DNA of 64,000 nucleotides from Acidobacteriota bacterium (GTDB lineage Bacteria; Acidobacteriota; Blastocatellia; UBA7656), in assembly GCA_040754075.1 (NCBI GenBank), contig JBFMDH010000030.1, positions 1 through 64,000 on the forward strand, read 5' to 3'. Of the stretch, positions 1-10,805 are shown in pieces. The notes beneath the pieces are model-generated. The model made no database searches. It worked only from the letters and a program-made list of their open reading frames with translations, and was not told the origin of the DNA. The stretch's first letter is position 1. Each line of letters starts with the position of its first letter. Made by a program: the position numbers and the translations under genes.

Positions 1-432
1 GCAAAGCCGTAGCCGCCGATTTAAAGACGATCTATAAAGCGGCGACGCGCGACGAAGGCGAGTTGGAGTTAGAAAAATTCGCTGAGAAATGGGGAGAAAA
101 ATATCCGCCGATTGTGCAGTTGTGGCGCAAGAACTGGGAACGAGTGGCGGTTTTTTATGCTTACCCGGAAGAAATTCGTCGAGTAATTTATACGACCAAT
201 GCGATTGAAAGTGTGAATATGAGTTTGCGAAAAATTATTAAAAATCGTGGTTCATTTCCTACAGATGAAGCGGCGTTGAAATTGATATACTTAGCGTTGC
301 AGAATATCAGCGAGCGCTGGACGATGCCGGTAAAGGATTGGCGAGCGGCGTTGAATCGGTTTGCCATTGAGTTTGCTGACCGGTTGCCAGAATTTTAACT
401 CGACCGTTTACACAAAATTATGCACACGCCCG
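1..432 (+). mobile_element. Right end of an IS256-family insertion sequence
   Basis: This is the 3' part of an insertion sequence that begins left of the window. It covers the transposase C-terminus and about 30 bases beyond its stop. The stretch around 410-428 (GTTTACACAAAATTATGCAC) resembles the terminal inverted repeats of IS256-family elements as I remember them. The exact boundary and target duplication cannot be set, because the left end is not visible. The next gene begins only about 10 bases after the proposed end, so the element may have removed that gene's native promoter and start. Confidence 0.7.
3..398 (+). CDS. IS256-family (Mutator-type) transposase, C-terminal part
   Basis: Open from the left edge of the window; the true start lies upstream, and internal start codons such as the TTG at 63 are not the real one. 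It encodes about 131 C-terminal residues of a DDE transposase of the Mutator/IS256 type. The diagnostic block TTNAIESVNMSLRKIIKNRG is the conserved region around the last catalytic glutamate (E of NAIES). The following helical stretch ends in FAIEFADRLPEF, a typical family C-terminus. No frameshift is visible in the part seen, so the element may be intact. It would act on its own terminal repeats by cut-and-paste or circle transposition. Confidence 0.93.
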   Translation, partial: KAVAADLKTIYKAATRDEGELELEKFAEKWGEKYPPIVQLWRKNWERVAVFYAYPEEIRRVIYTTNAIESVNMSLRKIIKNRGSFPTDEAALKLIYLALQNISERWTMPVKDWRAALNRFAIEFADRLPEF

Positions 433-438
433 GAAGCC

Positions 439-927
439 TTGAGAAAAATAATAACCACATCATCTATCGCAATGCTGTTAGCGTTATGTTCCGCTTTTGC
501 TGGTGAAGTTGTAACCGGGCAAAAGGTTCCGGTTATGGACGTGAGGGGACAAACCATCAAATCTGTGTTTGATGGCATAAAGCCTAAACGTCAAGCGCGC
601 AGCGCGAACAAAAGGAACGACCGGGGTTTTTTGAAGAAAATTTCTTTCCCTGAAATTTTCTCGCTGGAATCGCTACCTAAAAACGCTATTCTAAAGAAAC
701 TTTCTTCCGCTGGATATTTTGAGTGTACGGGATGTTATCAATGTTGGTCAGAACTCGTTGCACCCTACCCCGGCACTGGATGTGCTTGTTGCGAAGATGA
801 TTGTGGATGGCATGGAGGTGTACCTTCGCCGTCAGATGATTATATGAGTGGCATTACTGGATGTAACGGACCTAATTGTTCTTGTGGATATTGGCTTGAA
901 GAGTGTATCTGCGACCGGTGGCGATAG
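439..927 (+). CDS. Cysteine-rich secreted protein, 5' end possibly disrupted by the IS
   Basis: I do not recognise this family. Read from TTG 439 it starts with a good signal peptide (basic RK, then a hydrophobic run ending near CSAFAGE), so export is likely. The C-terminal 70 residues hold 12 cysteines in clusters such as CTGCYQC, CACCEDDC, CNGPNCSC and CIC, with many aromatic and acidic residues. This pattern fits a disulfide-rich or metal-binding exported protein. TTG 439 is preceded only by GGAAG two bases away, which is too close for normal initiation, and the IS256 end is about 10 bases upstream. The native start may therefore have been lost. Two more genes for membrane or exported products follow on the same strand. 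The open frame reads back to 361 inside the IS, which is not a plausible start. Confidence 0.55.
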   Translation: MRKIITTSSIAMLLALCSAFAGEVVTGQKVPVMDVRGQTIKSVFDGIKPKRQARSANKRNDRGFLKKISFPEIFSLESLPKNAILKKLSSAGYFECTGCYQCWSELVAPYPGTGCACCEDDCGWHGGVPSPSDDYMSGITGCNGPNCSCGYWLEECICDRWR

Positions 928-1020
928 TAGAAATGTAAATTGCAAGTTTGGCATCTACAACAGAAAATTGAAAAAGTCTAATTTTATTAAAAGTGTAGGC
1001 ACTCATCAAAAGGAGGAATT

Positions 1021-2049
1021 ATGGAATATCCAATAAAAACTTTGCTAATTTTTACATCGTTTTTTTTGTTCTATACTTCGGGGATAGCAAGTGCCCAAGA
1101 TTTGTCATCAGTAAAAAATTTGCAGTTGAAGCCAAAATACAGGATGGCGCAGATCATTAGATATAATGCAGACCATTTTGTGATGGTTGTAATGAATAAT
1201 CCTTCCGTTGGAGAGAATCAATCGGTTGTTGTTATCAATAAAGATGGGCAACAGGTATTTTTTTGCTCCCCTCAAAAAGATATACCGGAAGCTTCATCTG
1301 TTTCTGTTCATGATGCAGCGGTCAATAAAAATGGGATGGTTAGCGTCATTGTTGTGGCTGTCAGCACGACTGTGCAACCAGTGAGCGTCCTGATGGTTTA
1401 TGATCTAAATTCCGGCAAATTACAAAGGCTCGTCCAACTCGCTCCGATCTCAGCTAAGAGTGTCGCTGTTGATGAAAATAATAATACCTGGATAATGGGT
1501 GCGGATTTGGTAAAGAAAAATAGCCGTAGGGTAGATTACGACCTGATCTATAAATTTTCATCCGAAGGTAAATTGCTCGCAAGTTATGTTGCTCGAAGCT
1601 TATTTGCGAATAATGGATTTGGTCCTCAAGATAATGAGCCTTTTAACAGACGAAAAAATAGTATAGATTATCCTCTGCTTTTTGCTAATCAGGCGGGAAA
1701 AGTTTTTGCTTGGTTCGCCGGGCAACGCACTCTGGTTGAACTTAATGGTGAGGGAGAAATTTTAAGTAAAGCTCAAATTAGTGAGGAAAACCTTAAAGGA
1801 CGATTTGTAACTTCGGTAGCAATACAACCGAACGGTCAAGTCCTGGCACTCCTTCCCACAGGAATAACTCGTCTTGTGTCAGGAAGTAATTTATGGAAGC
1901 CAATAGCATATGAGCAAAGTTCCGAAGTGACCCAAATGCTGAAAGTGAATCCCACTAATAGCATTTTTGTAATCGGAGCAGATAGCTCTTCAATTATTGT
2001 GCGCGACAGTAACAACAGAATTTTCTGGTTGCCTGTCACCAATCAATAA
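1021..2049 (+). CDS. Exported protein with propeller-like repeats, unknown function
   Basis: The protein has 342 residues. A strong Shine-Dalgarno (AAGGAGGA, 1010-1017) precedes ATG 1021. An N-terminal signal peptide (hydrophobic run IFTSFFLFYTSGIASA) ends near AQD. The remainder is beta-rich, with recurring blocks such as VVVINKDGQQVF, VAVDENNNTWIMG, VELNGEGEILSKAQI and VAIQPNGQVLALLP. These look like blades of an NHL/SMP-30-type propeller, though no blade motif is exact. It lies between a cysteine-rich secreted protein and a polytopic membrane protein, and the three may form one operon. Base composition is more AT-rich than in the housekeeping genes further right, which suggests acquired DNA. 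The fold assignment is inference. Confidence 0.7.
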   Translation: MEYPIKTLLIFTSFFLFYTSGIASAQDLSSVKNLQLKPKYRMAQIIRYNADHFVMVVMNNPSVGENQSVVVINKDGQQVFFCSPQKDIPEASSVSVHDAAVNKNGMVSVIVVAVSTTVQPVSVLMVYDLNSGKLQRLVQLAPISAKSVAVDENNNTWIMGADLVKKNSRRVDYDLIYKFSSEGKLLASYVARSLFANNGFGPQDNEPFNRRKNSIDYPLLFANQAGKVFAWFAGQRTLVELNGEGEILSKAQISEENLKGRFVTSVAIQPNGQVLALLPTGITRLVSGSNLWKPIAYEQSSEVTQMLKVNPTNSIFVIGADSSSIIVRDSNNRIFWLPVTNQ

Positions 2050-2084
2050 GCAATTAGATTAATCCCCAAATCATTACTTGGTTT

Positions 2085-3569
2085 ATGCATTTCATCGCTG
2101 ACCCATCGAAAGAAGTATCTCTGAAACGATGGGCGGTGGCGGGGGTATTGAGCATATTGTTGCTTTGCCTGTGGCGTGACTTCTCACTCCTCACAAAGTA
2201 TCCGGTCGCTGTAGGTATTGATGGTTATTATTACGTTCTTCAGGTTGACACATTACGGACAAAGGGACACTTCTGGTTTCCGATTAAAACCCCTCTGATA
2301 ATTTATCTGATAACATCATTGAGTTACTTGGCACCCAATTCGATTATTGCGATAAAAATTTCAAGTCTTTTGTTTCACAGTTTGATTAGTTTGGGAGTTT
2401 TTGCTTTAGTAACATCGATTACTCGCCAATATTGGGCGGGTTTAATTGGTTTTATTTTAACTGCTATTCCAACCTCGCGGTTATTTTTGATTGGAGAGTT
2501 CATCAGTAACTCTGGGGGCTTAGCCTTCTTTATTTGGTCAGTGTGGTTTGCCATTAAAACAAGGCAAAATAAAAAAGTCGTCTACGCCATTCCTTCGATT
2601 GTTTGTTTTCTCGCTGCGGTTTTCAGCCATCGTTCTATTTTACTGCTCGCAATATTTTTTGTTATTTCAACTTTGCCTGTGTATTTGCTTATGGCACAAG
2701 ACCGAGGCTTGATTTATAAATGGGGTGCTTTAGGATTTGCGGTTGTCATTCTCATCGCTCCGGCATTAATTATGATTCAACCTTTTATACCTGTGCCAGA
2801 GTGGCTTAGAAGTGAGTTTGCAACTGTCCCACATTGGTCTATAACCCGCGTTGCTTTAGCTGATAGATTAATACTGCTTGTCGCATCTCTCGGTATCTTC
2901 TCGGTTCTATTTTTGAGACGCAATGAACAGCCTAATCAACCAATGATTTTTTTGGGCTCCATTGCTTTATTTAGCTTATTGGTAACGCTCAATCCGTTTT
3001 TGAGCGATGGCGACGGATTGAGAGGAATTGCGGGGCGATTATGTAGCTTAGCATACCTCCAAGTGGCATTATTGGTGCCAGGGTTAATTTGGTTAAGTAT
3101 GCAGAAAGAGCCAAGGAAAGCGATTTATGTCATCGCTACCATTGTGCCGTTACTTACTTTGAGTGCGAAAGCTCCAATACCCAGAGGAATTGGTGATGAT
3201 TATTTGCAGGCTCGTCTTACTTTAATTCAAAAATTACCGCTATCACGCGCTGCTCTGGTTGACAATAGTTTTATCGTAGCCTCGCATGGCAATCAGTTTG
3301 TGGTCACTTCAACAATAGGAATTCCTTCACAACAATCAATGCCGGTGGATAATCATTATCAGCGGATTTATTGGTTAATTGACGGTGTTGAAAAAAAACT
3401 TATCACGCCTGCCAATCTTGTTTTGATGAATGACACAAATAACCGAAGTAGTATATTGATAGAAGACAGTGAACTGCGACAACAATTCGCTAGGCTTGAT
3501 CCGAAAGACAGGCATAACCTTTTACTGAATAATACTCATCTTTCCCGAAGTAATATTTTCTTGCCTTAA
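2085..3569 (+). CDS. Polytopic membrane protein, GT-C glycosyltransferase-like
   Basis: The protein has 494 residues and about ten hydrophobic segments. After the first membrane segment comes GIDGYYYVLQVDTLRTKG, an acidic/aromatic loop like the first external loop of GT-C glycosyltransferases, where an Asp binds the lipid-linked donor. A long C-terminal soluble part from about residue 360 would face the periplasm. Layout and length suit an Arnt/GT39/GT83-like enzyme, but I cannot place it in a named family. It starts 36 bases after the upstream secreted propeller protein on the same strand and is probably co-transcribed. A role in decorating a secreted partner is only a hypothesis. Confidence 0.6.
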   Translation: MHFIADPSKEVSLKRWAVAGVLSILLLCLWRDFSLLTKYPVAVGIDGYYYVLQVDTLRTKGHFWFPIKTPLIIYLITSLSYLAPNSIIAIKISSLLFHSLISLGVFALVTSITRQYWAGLIGFILTAIPTSRLFLIGEFISNSGGLAFFIWSVWFAIKTRQNKKVVYAIPSIVCFLAAVFSHRSILLLAIFFVISTLPVYLLMAQDRGLIYKWGALGFAVVILIAPALIMIQPFIPVPEWLRSEFATVPHWSITRVALADRLILLVASLGIFSVLFLRRNEQPNQPMIFLGSIALFSLLVTLNPFLSDGDGLRGIAGRLCSLAYLQVALLVPGLIWLSMQKEPRKAIYVIATIVPLLTLSAKAPIPRGIGDDYLQARLTLIQKLPLSRAALVDNSFIVASHGNQFVVTSTIGIPSQQSMPVDNHYQRIYWLIDGVEKKLITPANLVLMNDTNNRSSILIEDSELRQQFARLDPKDRHNLLLNNTHLSRSNIFLP

Positions 3570-3640
3570 TCGACACTGCTTGACAACCCCAGCGAGCAGG
3601 CGCGATGCTTTAGGCTCGCAAGTTTACCTTGAGGTTAGCA

Positions 3641-3916
3641 ATGCAATTAGCTCGCGTGGTTGGAACCGTGGTTGCCACCGTCAAAAATGAAGCCCTTGAA
3701 GGGCGTAAACTGTTGGTCATTCAACCGCTCAACGGCGAGTTGCAGGAATATGGCAAACGCCTGGTTGCTATTGATTCAATCGGCGCGGGGGTTGGCGAAG
3801 TCGTCTTCTGGTGTCGCGGCAAAGAGGCATCATTTCCTTTCGACCCGATGCCTGTGCCGACCGATTGCACGATTGTCGGAATTGTCGATTCGGTTTACAC
3901 CAATAAGAGTCCGTAG
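3641..3916 (+). CDS. EutN/CcmL-type microcompartment vertex protein (BMC-P), copy 1
   Basis: About 91 residues of the EutN/CcmL family, which forms pentamers that cap the vertices of bacterial microcompartment shells. Family features are the N-terminal MQLARVVGTVVAT, the LLVIQPL strand, the LVAIDSIGAGVGEVV block and the C-terminal IVGIVDSV. ATG 3641 is chosen because GAGG (3631-3634) sits at good spacing; a TTG at 3629 is in frame but unsupported. No hexameric BMC-H shell gene or signature enzyme is visible here. The rest of the locus may lie elsewhere or left of the window, separated by the IS-associated patch. Confidence 0.9.
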   Translation: MQLARVVGTVVATVKNEALEGRKLLVIQPLNGELQEYGKRLVAIDSIGAGVGEVVFWCRGKEASFPFDPMPVPTDCTIVGIVDSVYTNKSP

Positions 3917-3976
3917 TTCGTAGCATTACGATAATGCCCGCGACTACTGACTACTGACTACCGACTACTGACTACT
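3909..3976 (+). repeat. Heptanucleotide array (GACTACT)5 with partial inverted arm
   Basis: Positions 3942-3976 are five consecutive 7-nt units, GACTACT, with one unit ending ACC. They end exactly against the ATG at 3977. A shorter, partly complementary arm, GTCCGTAGTTCGTAG (3909-3923), overlaps the end of the first eutN gene, so a hairpin is possible. The array occupies the place where a ribosome-binding site would be expected for the second eutN gene. Confidence 0.85.
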
Positions 3977-4252
3977 ATGCTATTAGCCAAAGTCATTGGC
4001 AACGTGGTTGCCACACAGAAAAACGACCGCTACGAAGGCAGTCGCATTATGGTTGTTCAACCGGTCAATCCTGATGGAACGGCGGCGGGCGAAGAGATGC
4101 TGGCGCTTGATTCTGTCGATGCGGGAATTGGCGACACGGTGGTGATTGTGCGCGAAGGTTGGTCGGCATCGACTGCGGCTACCGGAAAATTGGGCGCGGC
4201 AATCGATACGGCAATCATTGGCGTGGTGGATACCATTGAAGAGACTGCTTAA
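3977..4252 (+). CDS. EutN/CcmL-type microcompartment vertex protein (BMC-P), copy 2
   Basis: 91 residues, paralogous to the gene just upstream. Both share the N-terminal LA[RK]V[VI]G[TN]VVAT signature, the [LM]VVQPVN-type strand, the LDSVDAGIGDTVVIV block and the closing IIGVVDT. It should form pentameric shell vertices. ATG 3977 is the only sensible start, but no Shine-Dalgarno precedes it: a 35-nt heptamer array abuts the start codon. Translation may depend on coupling to copy 1 or on leaderless-type initiation. Tandem divergent vertex paralogues are common in microcompartment loci, where they may be mixed at vertices. Confidence 0.92.
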   Translation: MLLAKVIGNVVATQKNDRYEGSRIMVVQPVNPDGTAAGEEMLALDSVDAGIGDTVVIVREGWSASTAATGKLGAAIDTAIIGVVDTIEETA

Positions 4253-5621: not shown

Positions 5622-6266
5622 ATGCGAATCGCAACTATTCAACAGTTCTGGTTGTGGTTGAGTTTAACGCTTGCGGCAATTTTACTGACTCGCTTCGCCA
5701 TTGATTTCACAAATGAAATGCCGCTGCTGTTGGCGATTCCTTTTGATGGGTTGGTTCTCGCAACACTTGCGATTGCGTTTTGGAACATCATTCGATTTAA
5801 CTCATCTCAGCCGCTATCATCGGTCAATTCACTCACCGGTAATTTTCTACTGGCGGCAATTCCGCTGGGATTCTGGGCATCGTCGCTCGATTGTTCGGGC
5901 TTGTCACTGTCGGGCTGCACACCGTTTTGCACATTTATCAAAATCGGCTGGATACCGTTGATGGCTGCTGTGGTAATCGCCAGCCATTTCTTTAAAAATG
6001 AGTGGCTGTTGTTCGGTGTAGGACTGCTGTCCTGGTTGACGCTGGTGCCGCATTGTTTATGTTTCAATCCCGGCAATGGTTGGTGGATTGACAGAATCGG
6101 CGCAAGTCCGATGTGTTACATCTGGGGCTTCGTCGTAACCCTGATTTCTCTCAGCGCCTTAAAATCCAAAGCGCCAATCTGGCTGTCTCTGCTTATCAAT
6201 TCGGCAATTTTACTGGGCGCATTTGGCTTTTTTATCGCCCATCACTATTTTCACTTTCCGTGGTAA
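5622..6266 (+). CDS. Hypothetical multi-pass membrane protein
   Basis: 214 residues with about six hydrophobic segments. A short cysteine-containing loop (SLDCSGLSLSGCTPFC, about residues 86-101) lies between membrane spans. It starts on the base after the stop of the upstream membrane gene, which points to joint translation and a shared function. I do not recognise the family. A REP-like palindrome follows its stop at 6273-6306. Confidence 0.75.
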   Translation: MRIATIQQFWLWLSLTLAAILLTRFAIDFTNEMPLLLAIPFDGLVLATLAIAFWNIIRFNSSQPLSSVNSLTGNFLLAAIPLGFWASSLDCSGLSLSGCTPFCTFIKIGWIPLMAAVVIASHFFKNEWLLFGVGLLSWLTLVPHCLCFNPGNGWWIDRIGASPMCYIWGFVVTLISLSALKSKAPIWLSLLINSAILLGAFGFFIAHHYFHFPW

Positions 6267-6272
6267 AGCAAA

Positions 6273-6306
6273 GGTTGAAACGCGGTCAAAGACCGCTTGC
6301 TCAACC
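6273..6306. repeat. REP-like palindrome, copy 1
   Basis: The core GCGGTCAAAGACCGC (6282-6296) is a perfect 6-bp stem around AAA, and GGTTGA/TCAACC extends it outward. Its reverse complement closely matches one arm of the 59243-59304 hairpin (GTTGAG, AAGCGGTCTTTGACCGCG). It lies between convergent genes and could also serve as a terminator, though no T-tract follows. Confidence 0.75.
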
Positions 6307-7362: not shown

Positions 7363-7477
7363 GCTGATAGTTTAATGGTTGCGCGTATTTGAGCAAAAGT
7401 TTGTGTTGTGAATTGCCAATGAACATACAGAGTGAAGCGGTTGTTGACTCCAGACTCCAGACGCTCGACTCTAGACT
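7303..7477. repeat. Paired inverted heptanucleotide arrays around the hslO start
   Basis: The left array (about 7303-7356) is a run of 7-nt units of the type GTCTGGA, GTCGAGC, GTCTGAT. The right array (7446-7477) is GACTCCA, GACTCCA, GACGCTC, GACTCTA. Left 7330-7355 pairs with the right array at 25 of 26 bases, which leaves a loop of about 90 bases. The left arm lies inside the 5' end of the hslO frame; the right arm lies just beyond the 3' end of the mogA-type gene. Confidence 0.88.
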
Positions 7478-7479
7478 TT

Positions 7480-7980
7480 TTATGTAGCGCATTTTCGCGA
7501 TTGTTCGGTGAGCAGCCCAATGGCGTGCGGAAGGGTGCTGCGGATGGCGGTGAAGTTTTCGACCGCGCCGCGAAGGCTTCCGGGCAAATTGACAATCAAA
7601 GTTGTGCCGCGAATGCCGCATACGGCGCGTGAGAGTGGCGCAAGCGGCGTGGAATCGAGGCTGCGAAGGCGCATCAGTTCGGCAAGCCCCGGCGCTTCTT
7701 TGTCAATCACTTCGCGGGTTGCTTCGGGGGTATTGTCGCGCGGGGCAAAGCCGGTTCCGCCGGTGGTGAAGACGAGATTGACATCTTCGCGGTCGGCATA
7801 GGCTTTGAGCTTTGCGGCAATCAATTCGCGGTCATCGGAAATAATTTCGGTTGCGACAATGCGCGCGCCGAGTTTTTCAAGCTCATTGACCACCGCAGGT
7901 CCCGACGTATCTTCGCGTTCGCCGCGTGATGCTTTATCGCTGATGGTCAACACCACCGCAACGATTTCAACTTTCGACAT
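7480..7980 (-). CDS. MogA/MoaB-type molybdopterin biosynthesis protein
   Basis: 166 residues, the normal length for this family, which adenylylates molybdopterin (MogA/MoaB role) during molybdenum cofactor synthesis. Diagnostic are the N-terminal VVLTISDKASRGEREDTSGP, the TTGGTGFAPRDNTPEAT loop that binds molybdopterin, and the C-terminal IVNLPGSLRGAVENF. MogA and MoaB cannot be separated by eye, so no symbol is given. No other moa/mob gene is visible nearby. Upstream of ATG 7980 is a GGAGAT-type Shine-Dalgarno on the minus strand. Confidence 0.93.
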   Translation of the reverse strand: MSKVEIVAVVLTISDKASRGEREDTSGPAVVNELEKLGARIVATEIISDDRELIAAKLKAYADREDVNLVFTTGGTGFAPRDNTPEATREVIDKEAPGLAELMRLRSLDSTPLAPLSRAVCGIRGTTLIVNLPGSLRGAVENFTAIRSTLPHAIGLLTEQSRKCAT

Positions 7981-8069
7981 AGTTCATCTCCTGAAAAATA
8001 AATGTAGCGAAAGCCTCGAACTTGCGCTACACCATTGAGGATTTTATTCAAGTGAATTTTATCGGGCGG

Positions 8070-8660
8070 TTAAATTGCGGTTGGAGGCTGCAAAGGCAGC
8101 ACTGCCAGTGGCGTATAGATTGCCCCGCGCGGGTCGAGGTCGCTTCGCATGACGATGATTTCAGTAACCGTGAATCGGTCAGAGGCTTTGCCTCTGCGAA
8201 TGAGTTCTTCGGCAAGCTGGCGGGCATTGCGCCGGTTGCGAATGCGCCCGATGGTCAGATGGGGATTGAAATTTTTACTTTCACGCGCAATGCCGATAGT
8301 CGAAAGCTCGTCTTCGATGGCTTGCTGCAACGCTATCAAGGCATCCGGTAAATCGTTCAAGCCGATCCATAAGACGTTGGGATTTTGCGGTGAAGGGAAG
8401 ACGCCCGCGCCGCTCGCTTCGAGTTGAAACGGGCTACAGGAGCCGGTTACGTGGCGCGCGGCTTCAATGACTTGGGGAATTTTTTCGGTCGGCATATCGC
8501 CAAGGAATTTAATCGTCAGGTGAATGTTTGCCGGTTTTACCCAACTCACCTGCGCGTCAATGCGGCGCAACTCGTTCTGCAAATTCTCGATTTGCGTTTT
8601 GAGCGAAGGCGGGATGTCTATGCAGATGAAGGCGCGAATGGAGGGTGTCGAGGTTGGCAT
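8070..8660 (-). CDS. thpR: RNA 2',3'-cyclic phosphodiesterase (2H family)
   Basis: 196 residues. The two H-x-T-x catalytic motifs of the 2H phosphoesterase family are present as HLTIKFLGD (about residue 46) and HLTIGRIR (about residue 134). The N-terminal RAFICIDIPPSLK is also typical of ThpR/LigT. The family hydrolyses 2',3'-cyclic phosphates on RNA ends to 2'-phosphates. It begins 3 bases after the ppk1 stop on the same strand, so it is probably translated from the ppk1 transcript. Confidence 0.93.
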   Translation of the reverse strand: MPTSTPSIRAFICIDIPPSLKTQIENLQNELRRIDAQVSWVKPANIHLTIKFLGDMPTEKIPQVIEAARHVTGSCSPFQLEASGAGVFPSPQNPNVLWIGLNDLPDALIALQQAIEDELSTIGIARESKNFNPHLTIGRIRNRRNARQLAEELIRRGKASDRFTVTEIIVMRSDLDPRGAIYTPLAVLPLQPPTAI

Positions 8661-8663
8661 CGC

Positions 8664-10805
8664 TTAAAACTCGTCTTTAAGGTCAGGGTTCATAAAATAG
8701 GCTTGTGCGTCAACCCGCGCTTCGCCGGTCATCGGACGTACACGTTCATACTTGCCATCCACCAACAACCGTCGGGCTTTGACATTATCTTTCAAACAGA
8801 TATCCAGGATTCGTTTTAACTGTTTTTGTAAATTCGCGTCTTCAATCGGAGTGATGACCTCAACCCGCCGGTCAAGATTTCTGAGCATCCAGTCGGCGCT
8901 GCCGAGATAAAAATCTCCTGCTCCGCCATTGGCAAAATAATAGATGCGGCTGTGTTCTAAAAATCTCCCCACAATGCTGTGAACCTCTATGGTGCTGGAA
9001 AGCCCGGGCACACCCGGTCTGAGCATACAAACGCCGCGCACGATTAAATCAATCGGCACCCCGGCTTGTGAGGCTTCATAGAGTGAACGAATGATTTTGG
9101 TATCCGTCAGACTGTTGATTTTAGCGATGATATGCGCCGGAAGCCCGGCTTTGTGATGTTCGATTTCGCGTTCAATCAAGGCAGTCATCTTTTCGCGCAG
9201 GTTCACCGGCGCGACCAGTAATTTTCGATACTCCGTTTGTCTTGAAAAGCCTGTGAGAAAATTGAACAGGTCGGTCACATCTGCGCCGATTAACGGATTG
9301 GTGGTAAACAATCCCAAATCGGTATAGATTTTCGCCGTCGCCGGATTGTAATTGCCTGTGCCGATGTGAATATAACGAATCAGGGAACCGGATTCGCGAC
9401 GAACCACTAAGGCAACTTTACAATGGGTCTTGAGTCCCAGAACGCCATAGACGACGTGAACCCCTGAGCGTTCGAGTCTGCGCGCCCATTCGATATTATT
9501 TTCTTCATCGAAACGGGCTTTGAGTTCGACGAGCACGGCAACCTGTTTGCCGCCTTCGCTGGCTTCCATGAGCGCCTGCACGATAGGCGAGCGTGTACCC
9601 GTGCGATAAAGGGTCATTTTTATTGCCAGCACATCAGGGTCGGCGGCAGCCTGCCTGATGAAATCCACCACACTTGAAAACGATTGATACGGATGATGAA
9701 CCAACACATCCTGACGACGGATGACATCGAACATCGATTCGCCGGTTTTGAATTCCGGGGCAATCGGCGCAATGTAGGGGCGGTCTTTCAACGTTGACCT
9801 GCCCAAATCATAAAGCGCCATCAAATCCGGCACATTCAATGGCCCGTCAATGGTGTAGACATCATCGGCAGTGAGTCCTATCGAACTTGCCAGGTAACGC
9901 ACCATTTCACCGGGCATGGTTGATGACACTTCAAGACGCACGCCGTGACCGAAACGGCGTTTGCGCAGTTCGCGTTCCATAGTCTGCAATAGGTCGCCGG
10001 CTTCGTCTTCACGGATTTCAATATCAGCGTCGCGGGTGACTCTGAAAGTAAAGCACTCGCCGACCGTAACCCCCGGAAACAGCGCATCGGTATTGGCGGC
10101 AATGAGTTCTTCGAGCAGGATAAACTCGGTTCCCGATTCACCCACAGGAATCAACCTGGGCACGATGGGCGGCACTTTGACGCGAATGAAACTCGGTGTT
10201 GTAGAAAGCCGGGTCGAAGAATTGTCCTGCGACTGGTCAACCATCATGCCGATGTTGAGGCTGAGGTTTGAAATGTACGGAAAGCGATGACTGGGATCGA
10301 CGGCTTGCGGCGTCAGCACCGGAAAGACATTTTCAAGGAAATAATCTTTTAAATCGCGTTTCTGTTTTTCGGAAAGCGCGCGATAGGGCGTGATGATTAA
10401 GCCTTCGGCGGCAAGCGCCGGAAGAATTTCCGAAGTCAAACAGCGCATCTGGTCTTGCACCATCGGGCGCAAACGTTGGGTGACGCCTTTGAGTTGCGCG
10501 GCGGGCATCATGCCGTCGGGCGAAAGTTCGGTGACTTTCGATTCAATCTGTTGTTTGAGACCCGACACCCGAATCATGAAAAATTCGTCGAGGTTGGTAG
10601 AAAAAATCGACAGGAATTTGAGGCGTTCAAGCAGGGGTTGCGAACGGTCAAGGGCTTCTTCGAGGACGCGATAATTGAATTCGAGCCAGTTGAGTTCGCG
10701 GTTCAGCAGCAGTTGGTTGTTGAGAAAAAGGGTTTTCGGCAACGCGACATTTTCCACCATACTGATGTTTTCTTCTCGATTCGATTGTACATTCGCTTCA
10801 GCCAT
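8664..10805 (-). CDS. ppk1: Polyphosphate kinase 1
   Basis: 713 residues, full length for PPK1, which transfers the ATP gamma-phosphate onto long-chain polyphosphate. Family blocks in order: [18 protein letters not shown] (N-domain), [22 protein letters not shown]-type head domain, then the catalytic C1/C2 domains with [25 protein letters not shown], and [20 protein letters not shown], where the His near residue 480 is the phospho-acceptor. The first 16 residues before the second Met are poorly conserved, so the start could be slightly internal. thpR follows at once. Confidence 0.97.

Follow-up and report, generated by a model that had tools for sequence, protein, structure and literature searches.

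In the methylamine dehydrogenase cluster, mauB encodes a propeller, mauA encodes a small cysteine-rich subunit, and mauD and mauE accompany them. Two conserved tryptophans form the cofactor, and the cluster also carries a diheme maturation enzyme and an electron acceptor. Bacteroidota have 6-bladed propellers and peptides of the NVEALA type, the latter small, exported, cysteine-bearing, and encoded near propeller and TlpA-like genes. The nearest printed parallel found is a set of decRiPPter candidate families from Streptomyces, in which homologues of MauE/MauD, described there as having a maturation role, occur with precursors of at least eight cysteines (PMC7794033). Here we describe a locus of an Acidobacteriota bacterium (assembly GCA_040754075.1), a phylum described as abundant and ubiquitous in soils (PMC5900883). 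Genes for a cysteine-rich protein, a beta-propeller, and a GT-C-like polytopic protein lie there beside the end of an insertion sequence (IS). The window, meaning the whole stretch of DNA analysed, covers positions 1 to 64,000 of contig 30 (JBFMDH010000030.1) in an assembly of 7.58 Mb and 68 contigs. The genes and their parts are:

439 to 927, + strand: predicted exported cysteine-rich protein, 162 amino acids from a TTG at 439; the native start is uncertain and would lie on the IS junction or just beyond it
439 to 501, + strand: signal-peptide-like N-terminus ending in SAFA (sequence and a simple hydrophobicity rule)
547 to 585, + strand: family motif GQTIKSVFDGIKP ahead of the core (strict and loose motif tests)
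724 to 912, + strand: cysteine-rich core, 12 cysteines in 63 residues (96 to 158)
1011 to 1016, + strand: AGGAGG ribosome-binding site of the propeller gene
1021 to 2049, + strand: predicted exported beta-propeller, 342 amino acids (AlphaFold2 model, Foldseek and VIA matches, relatives)
2085 to 3569, + strand: polytopic GT-C-like protein, 494 amino acids, with a C-terminal soluble part (relatives in loci L020 and L142)
2214 to 2234, + strand: GIDGYYY loop after the first membrane span, with a GT-C-like acidic residue; G, D, G, Y, and Y are invariant in three relatives

The locus resembles the methylamine dehydrogenase cluster in the propeller fold of the large partner, the small cysteine-rich partner, and a thioredoxin-like protein that some related loci encode where the cluster has its maturation protein. 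It shares with the decRiPPter families a cysteine-rich precursor beside a presumed thiol-disulfide maturation gene and a function not yet assigned. Those families are set apart by their description, which places them in another phylum and names no propeller. The NVEALA-type systems differ in that neither the cysteine-rich protein nor the propeller here has a Pfam match of that kind. A search of the literature on Acidobacteria cysteine-rich secreted proteins, propellers, and thioredoxin found no description of the cassette in the titles and abstract openings listed, and the system is called undescribed because of this result and of the negative family-library searches given below.

Judged by sequence comparison, the cysteine-rich and propeller genes are a recurrent cassette, and the pair is its core unit. 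The comparison covered 68 loci with 73 propeller open reading frames (ORFs), made up of the window, ten loci collected before, and 57 stretches around 61 of the 62 profile matches in the class of G208 (the remaining one is L036). In other genera, relatives of the propeller were found with cysteine-rich genes alongside. Neighbours were counted as stop-to-stop frames with at least 8 cysteines per 70 residues, a rule that replaced an earlier one requiring a signal-like stretch and a start codon, which gave 23/73 and missed members with cut frames. Such a frame lay on either side of 30/73 propellers vs 35/419 other ORFs of at least 200 amino acids, and upstream on the same strand of 26/73 vs 3/73 on the opposite strand, although spurious frames are still contained in the counts of 30 and 26, as they are in the controls. 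At a threshold of at least 10 cysteines per 70 residues, 17 of the 73 had an upstream frame on the same strand and one on the opposite strand. Signal-bearing ORFs with 8 cysteines per 70 residues numbered 0/319 in 366 kb of other stretches from four genomes. The window shows the defining arrangement, with a propeller of the same family directly downstream of its cysteine-rich gene, and the full three-gene order recurs in genome G599, from another class of the phylum (locus L142: cysteine-rich gene at 5697 to 6305, propeller ending at 7440, GT-C gene at 7407 to 8978). The comparison also shows that the cysteine-rich protein diverges together with the adjoining secreted propeller. Similarity matrices of 27 cysteine-rich proteins and of their 27 propellers correlate with r 0.84 (0/2000 permutations), a value that species relatedness, paralogy, and common descent partly produce. 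In a Pfam scan of same-strand neighbours (84 of the 102 ORFs listed), none of the first 25 of 83 families occurred in more than three members. L022 4879 to 5046 and L023 4918 to 5331, which follow the propellers of G034 (contig 22) and G045, appear by eye to be broken remnants of a cysteine-rich gene related to that of L024.

The cysteine-rich protein of the window is, by profile comparison, a member of the cassette's cysteine-rich family. A blind profile, built from 26 relatives that were aligned anew with the window protein left out, recovered it as the sole hit with E < 0.1 among 2453 ORFs (E 6.9e-7; 27.4 bits, with a composition bias of 7 bits). Shuffled versions reached at most 10.5 bits, and its score was matched by 0/300 full shuffles, by 0/300 shuffles with cysteine positions fixed, and by 0/12 other secreted cysteine-rich ORFs. 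Because of these profile, shuffle, and other-ORF comparisons we regard the frame as real and not a product of chance. The cores themselves barely align (mean column identity of 14% over 27 proteins). A GxxLxxxFxG segment lies between signal and core in 14/27 members, including the window (GQTIKSVFDGIKP). Its strict form, with the following proline, occurred in 0/2137 background ORFs and upstream of 8/73 propellers, window included; the loose form occurred in 9/2137 and upstream of 14/73, with the qualification that the motif was chosen by eye from the same loci and these counts are not a blind test. The family was assembled from 35 listed rows with at least 7 cysteines per 70 residues. L155, L164, L166, and L181 (spurious by eye), L177 and L021 (other type), the second L183 row, and the window were dropped, L163 was added, and the L145 frame was replaced, giving 28 proteins; leaving out L024 and L025 and restoring the window gave the 27-protein alignment.

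None of the 27 cysteine-rich proteins had a match in Pfam or NCBIfam at E 0.01, PDB sequence searches returned no match for the window protein or its family, and PHROGs (3 proteins) and PADLOC (5 proteins) returned none. A single-sequence search of 98 relatives found the window's own gene and three matches at E 0.005 to 0.008, thus 4/98 genomes with only its own convincing. Two of the three were rejected as chance matches, with no matching secreted cysteine-rich ORF listed at their loci; the third is L009.

The second gene encodes a propeller, predicted to be exported. Its AlphaFold2 model is all-beta (mean predicted local distance difference test [pLDDT] score of 64), Foldseek matched the model to NHL and WD propellers, and the best VIA match had Z 14.2 and a root-mean-square deviation (rmsd) of 4.5 over 215 residues. 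Pfam gave just six weak models for 30 propellers, each in at most 2/30, and a PDB sequence search returned five rows, with E values of 0.27 to 0.79. Among near relatives, 6/98 genomes had the propeller, own genome counted. Profile searches found it in 6/162 genomes of the window's class, 5/396 genomes of a phylum sample, 49/339 sampled genomes of the class of G208, and, in the class of G350, 2/38 genomes, neither of them new. Two genomes have five propeller ORFs each. At L025 1492 to 2567 (G022), the propeller gene lies in two halves on opposite strands, an inversion-like arrangement that is either real or an assembly error.

Modifier genes accompany the pair in some loci. A thioredoxin-like gene is present in 6/68 propeller loci; in each it shares the strand of the propeller and lies less than 550 bases from it. 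Four of the six went into the profile used, and L163 and L048 are independent finds; in L163 the match is a short frame and the cysteine-rich neighbour has just 6 cysteines per 70 residues. When five of these proteins were scanned, two passed the Pfam AhpC-TSA cut-off (L186 and L048), two fell below it, and one had no match. In L056 to L085, a separate conserved C-terminal domain, calcium-loop-like and ending FRYRxKV...GRWAxDVF, was observed in 23/58 relatives among the matches listed. It closes secreted proteins with variable cysteine-rich or zincin-like heads, and by eye its genes often stand behind a small exported partner, of which there are two kinds, and in some cases have a thioredoxin-like gene next to them.

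The third gene appears to encode a GT-C-like glycosyltransferase. Hydropathy gives 8 or 9 membrane spans, and the acidic D46 in the first outer loop is invariant across three relatives. Three motifs are common to all three GT-C proteins: GxDGYxY following the first span, TLNPFL, and, close to the C-terminus, HGxQF. The L142 protein is 33-34% identical to that of the window over 464 columns (E 3e-84) and the L020 relative is 30% identical. Likeness to GT-C glycosyltransferases (PMT_2/STT3-like) lies in the many spans, the acidic motif after the first span, and a weak PMT_2 match in the L020 relative (23.9 bits, below the cut-off of 26.1), while the window protein differs in matching no Pfam model at E 1 and the G599 member in matching none at E 0.01. 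A profile of the subfamily weakly matched (E 7e-10) a protein of the window's own genome that passes the PMT_2 cut-off. As a single query the window protein found no relative in the genome contigs searched, in plasmids, or by sequence in PDB. The gene was found in 2/98 near relatives and in 2/396 genomes of the phylum sample, own counted in both, plus metagenome-assembled genome contig JAHBSL010000004.1, which is the same locus as L020; these counts are lower bounds from a scan with exact short peptides, and the G599 member was found later via its propeller.

All three known members of this GT-C subfamily lie near a cysteine-rich frame, that of L020 being without its own signal. In L142 an Amidase_2 gene stands behind the GT-C gene. 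In L020 the GT-C gene is followed by a small secreted frame, a 44-cysteine frame, and then a thioredoxin-like gene, and profile searches found no propeller in that genome. The cysteine-rich protein of L020 resembles an acidic double-disulfide repeat protein (NF033662, below cut-off) and is a cysteine-rich neighbour of the same GT-C subfamily, but it is not recognised as belonging to the cysteine-rich family of the window. The 179-amino-acid secreted frame of L020 and the 388-amino-acid, 44-cysteine frame behind it (7860 to 9625) are parted near a run of nine A and could represent a single gene divided by a frame error. In G001 (L105 3711 to 7512), another 12-cysteine protein is followed by a large polytopic protein resembling a membrane glycosyltransferase.

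The left border of the three genes is formed by the IS, of which two parts are present:

3 to 398, + strand: IS256/Mutator-family transposase, C-terminal part (Pfam PF00872 Transposase_mut, 97.1 bits, cut-off 21)
403 to 431, - strand: terminal inverted repeat at the right end of the IS, whose last base is 431 (two other genomic copies, 2 mismatches)

The window begins at contig base 1, inside the element, and the contig start truncates the transposase. Membership in IS256/Mutator follows from the transposase together with the common right inverted repeat, which has one match within the window (0 expected). Two other genomic copies match the right end through base 431, after which one diverges immediately and the other after two further bases. 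A search of the assembly that tolerated as many as 3 mismatches gave no match to the left end or left flank. The region from 432 to 3569 has a GC content of 40.7% vs 49.4% in the rest of the window, where 30 ORFs of at least 250 amino acids have a mean of 49.9% (standard deviation of 3.5). Downstream of the polytopic gene, at 3629 to 4252, are two tandem EutN_CcmL (bacterial microcompartment vertex) genes, the second preceded by a short CTACTGA-type repeat; they belong to something else.

Only seven bases separate the IS end from the TTG at 439, and the IS has probably removed or changed the native start of the first gene. Whether the gene is expressed today is doubtful, the IS having landed at its start. 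If the TTG is the start, the N-terminus is MRKIITTSSIAMLLALCSAFA, which is signal-like; the TTG retains a complete signal sequence, with GGAAG just two bases upstream. The GxxLxxxFxG segment starts 26 to 72 residues from the frame start in 14 members, and in the window, counted from the TTG at 439, it starts at 37. With the segment in a normal position, a start at 439 would yield a nearly full protein, although the gene's own upstream region has been lost.

The initial annotation had placed the locus correctly and described a signal-bearing protein with 12 cysteines in about 70 residues, an exported propeller-like protein, and AT-rich genes adjoining an IS256 end, all of which agree with the present results; the all-beta model came from the structure prediction it had proposed. 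It had named two findings that would count against it, a first frame lacking conservation and genes that do not co-occur elsewhere. The 26-member profile, shuffles, and motif all favour conservation of the frame, and the co-occurrence is seen as the full order in G599 and as the pair in many genomes. Other parts of it held less completely. Removal of the first gene's start by the IS is plausible given the seven-base gap and the missing upstream region, but the whole signal is kept from the TTG and the left flank was not found. The reading of the third protein as polytopic and GT-C-like stands on its spans and acidic motif, with no curated model match in the window. The view of the three genes as one undescribed system agrees with the negative family searches (weak matches in the case of the propeller), but the core is the pair, and the GT-C gene is optional; secretion, modification, or contact, which it had suggested as the role, would be candidate functions.

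We favour, at a probability of about 0.5, a reading drawn from sequence and context in which the cysteine-rich protein and the propeller would be exported and act together in the envelope as a unit of two proteins, to which a modifier may be added. Several results weigh against it. Frames with 6 cysteines per 70 residues are common by chance (42/73 vs 119/419 controls), and part of the counted frames is therefore spurious. Under the rule used, 43/73 propeller ORFs have no such cysteine-rich frame, and G280, G350, and G014 have the propeller with no cysteine-rich neighbour seen. Upstream rates by similarity of the propeller to its profile are 8/18, 15/28, and, for the most distant, 3/27, which indicates that the propeller superfamily extends beyond the cassette. 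The conserved segment is absent from about half of the members, shared descent enters the distance correlation, the GT-C gene was found in just 2/68 propeller loci (a lower bound), and its structure model is poor (mean pLDDT of 41).

One rival explanation is a secreted, disulfide-rich peptide, either antimicrobial or contact-dependent, for which the propeller would be the cognate carrier, receptor, or protector. It would fit the precursor-like layout, in which a [VI][HY]AQ site stands just before the core in 7/28 members, as well as the diverging cores, their cognate divergence with the propellers, and the up to 5 propeller copies per genome, with two tandem pairs in G631. We consider it unlikely: the window protein has no HAQ site, the PADLOC and PHROGs searches above gave no match, and no secretion machinery was recognised among the neighbours sampled, which were 84 ORFs on the same strand, judged by the first 25 of the 83 Pfam families. 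A less probable account is that the first gene has by now become a pseudogene, the three genes being a decaying remnant beside the IS. The seven-base gap, the GGAAG two bases from the TTG, and the AT-rich composition are in line with decay, as is the finding of propeller and GT-C in one of seven genomes searched in the taxonomic family, but all three frames are open with lengths similar to those of relatives, and the propeller retains a strong ribosome-binding site.

An enzyme like methylamine dehydrogenase, with the propeller as large subunit, the cysteine-rich protein as small subunit bearing a self-derived cofactor, and thioredoxin-like maturation as by MauD/MauE, would have the same three kinds of part. 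VIA also listed the quinohemoprotein amine dehydrogenase beta chain (1jju_B), with Z 12.3 and an rmsd of 4.7 over 202 residues, tied with many unrelated propellers. This enzyme is improbable in our view: 0/27 cysteine-rich proteins match any Pfam model at E 0.01, 0/30 propellers match an amine-dehydrogenase model at E 0.05, the best tryptophan column holds 9/27 in a loose alignment, and for a catalytic subunit the core varies a great deal. A chance placement of an unrelated cysteine-rich frame beside ordinary genes, for which the lack of a convincing cysteine-rich relative outside the own genome in the single-sequence search of 98 relatives might speak, is hardly credible; recurrence refutes it, in the order in G599, the neighbour and upstream counts, the motif, the blind profile, and the shuffles.

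Under the favoured reading of an exported two-protein unit, the Sec system would export the cysteine-rich precursor. The core would then fold oxidatively in the periplasm, a step suggested because of the thioredoxin-like genes, the signal sequence, and the cysteine content, and some loci may supply their own membrane-anchored thioredoxin-like protein for it. The mature core and its cognate propeller would bind to form a stable complex, located either in the periplasm or at the surface, with the fast-changing core as the recognition part. In the window and G599, the GT-C-like enzyme would probably transfer a sugar from a lipid carrier to either exported protein or to a contacted envelope glycan. 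A broader and more tentative proposal is a phylum-wide secreted recognition system of Acidobacteriota without counterpart elsewhere, in which hypervariable disulfide-rich cores would be released from the precursor, co-evolving propellers would present them, and the thioredoxin-like or GT-C modifiers adapting the core would be interchangeable. The comparison defines a two-gene unit by a sequence signature, a genome context, and partners that can be tested. Should the variable cores prove to be peptides for recognition or antimicrobial action, they would open up a new source of disulfide-rich scaffolds; should they be enzyme subunits, they would point to new cofactor chemistry.

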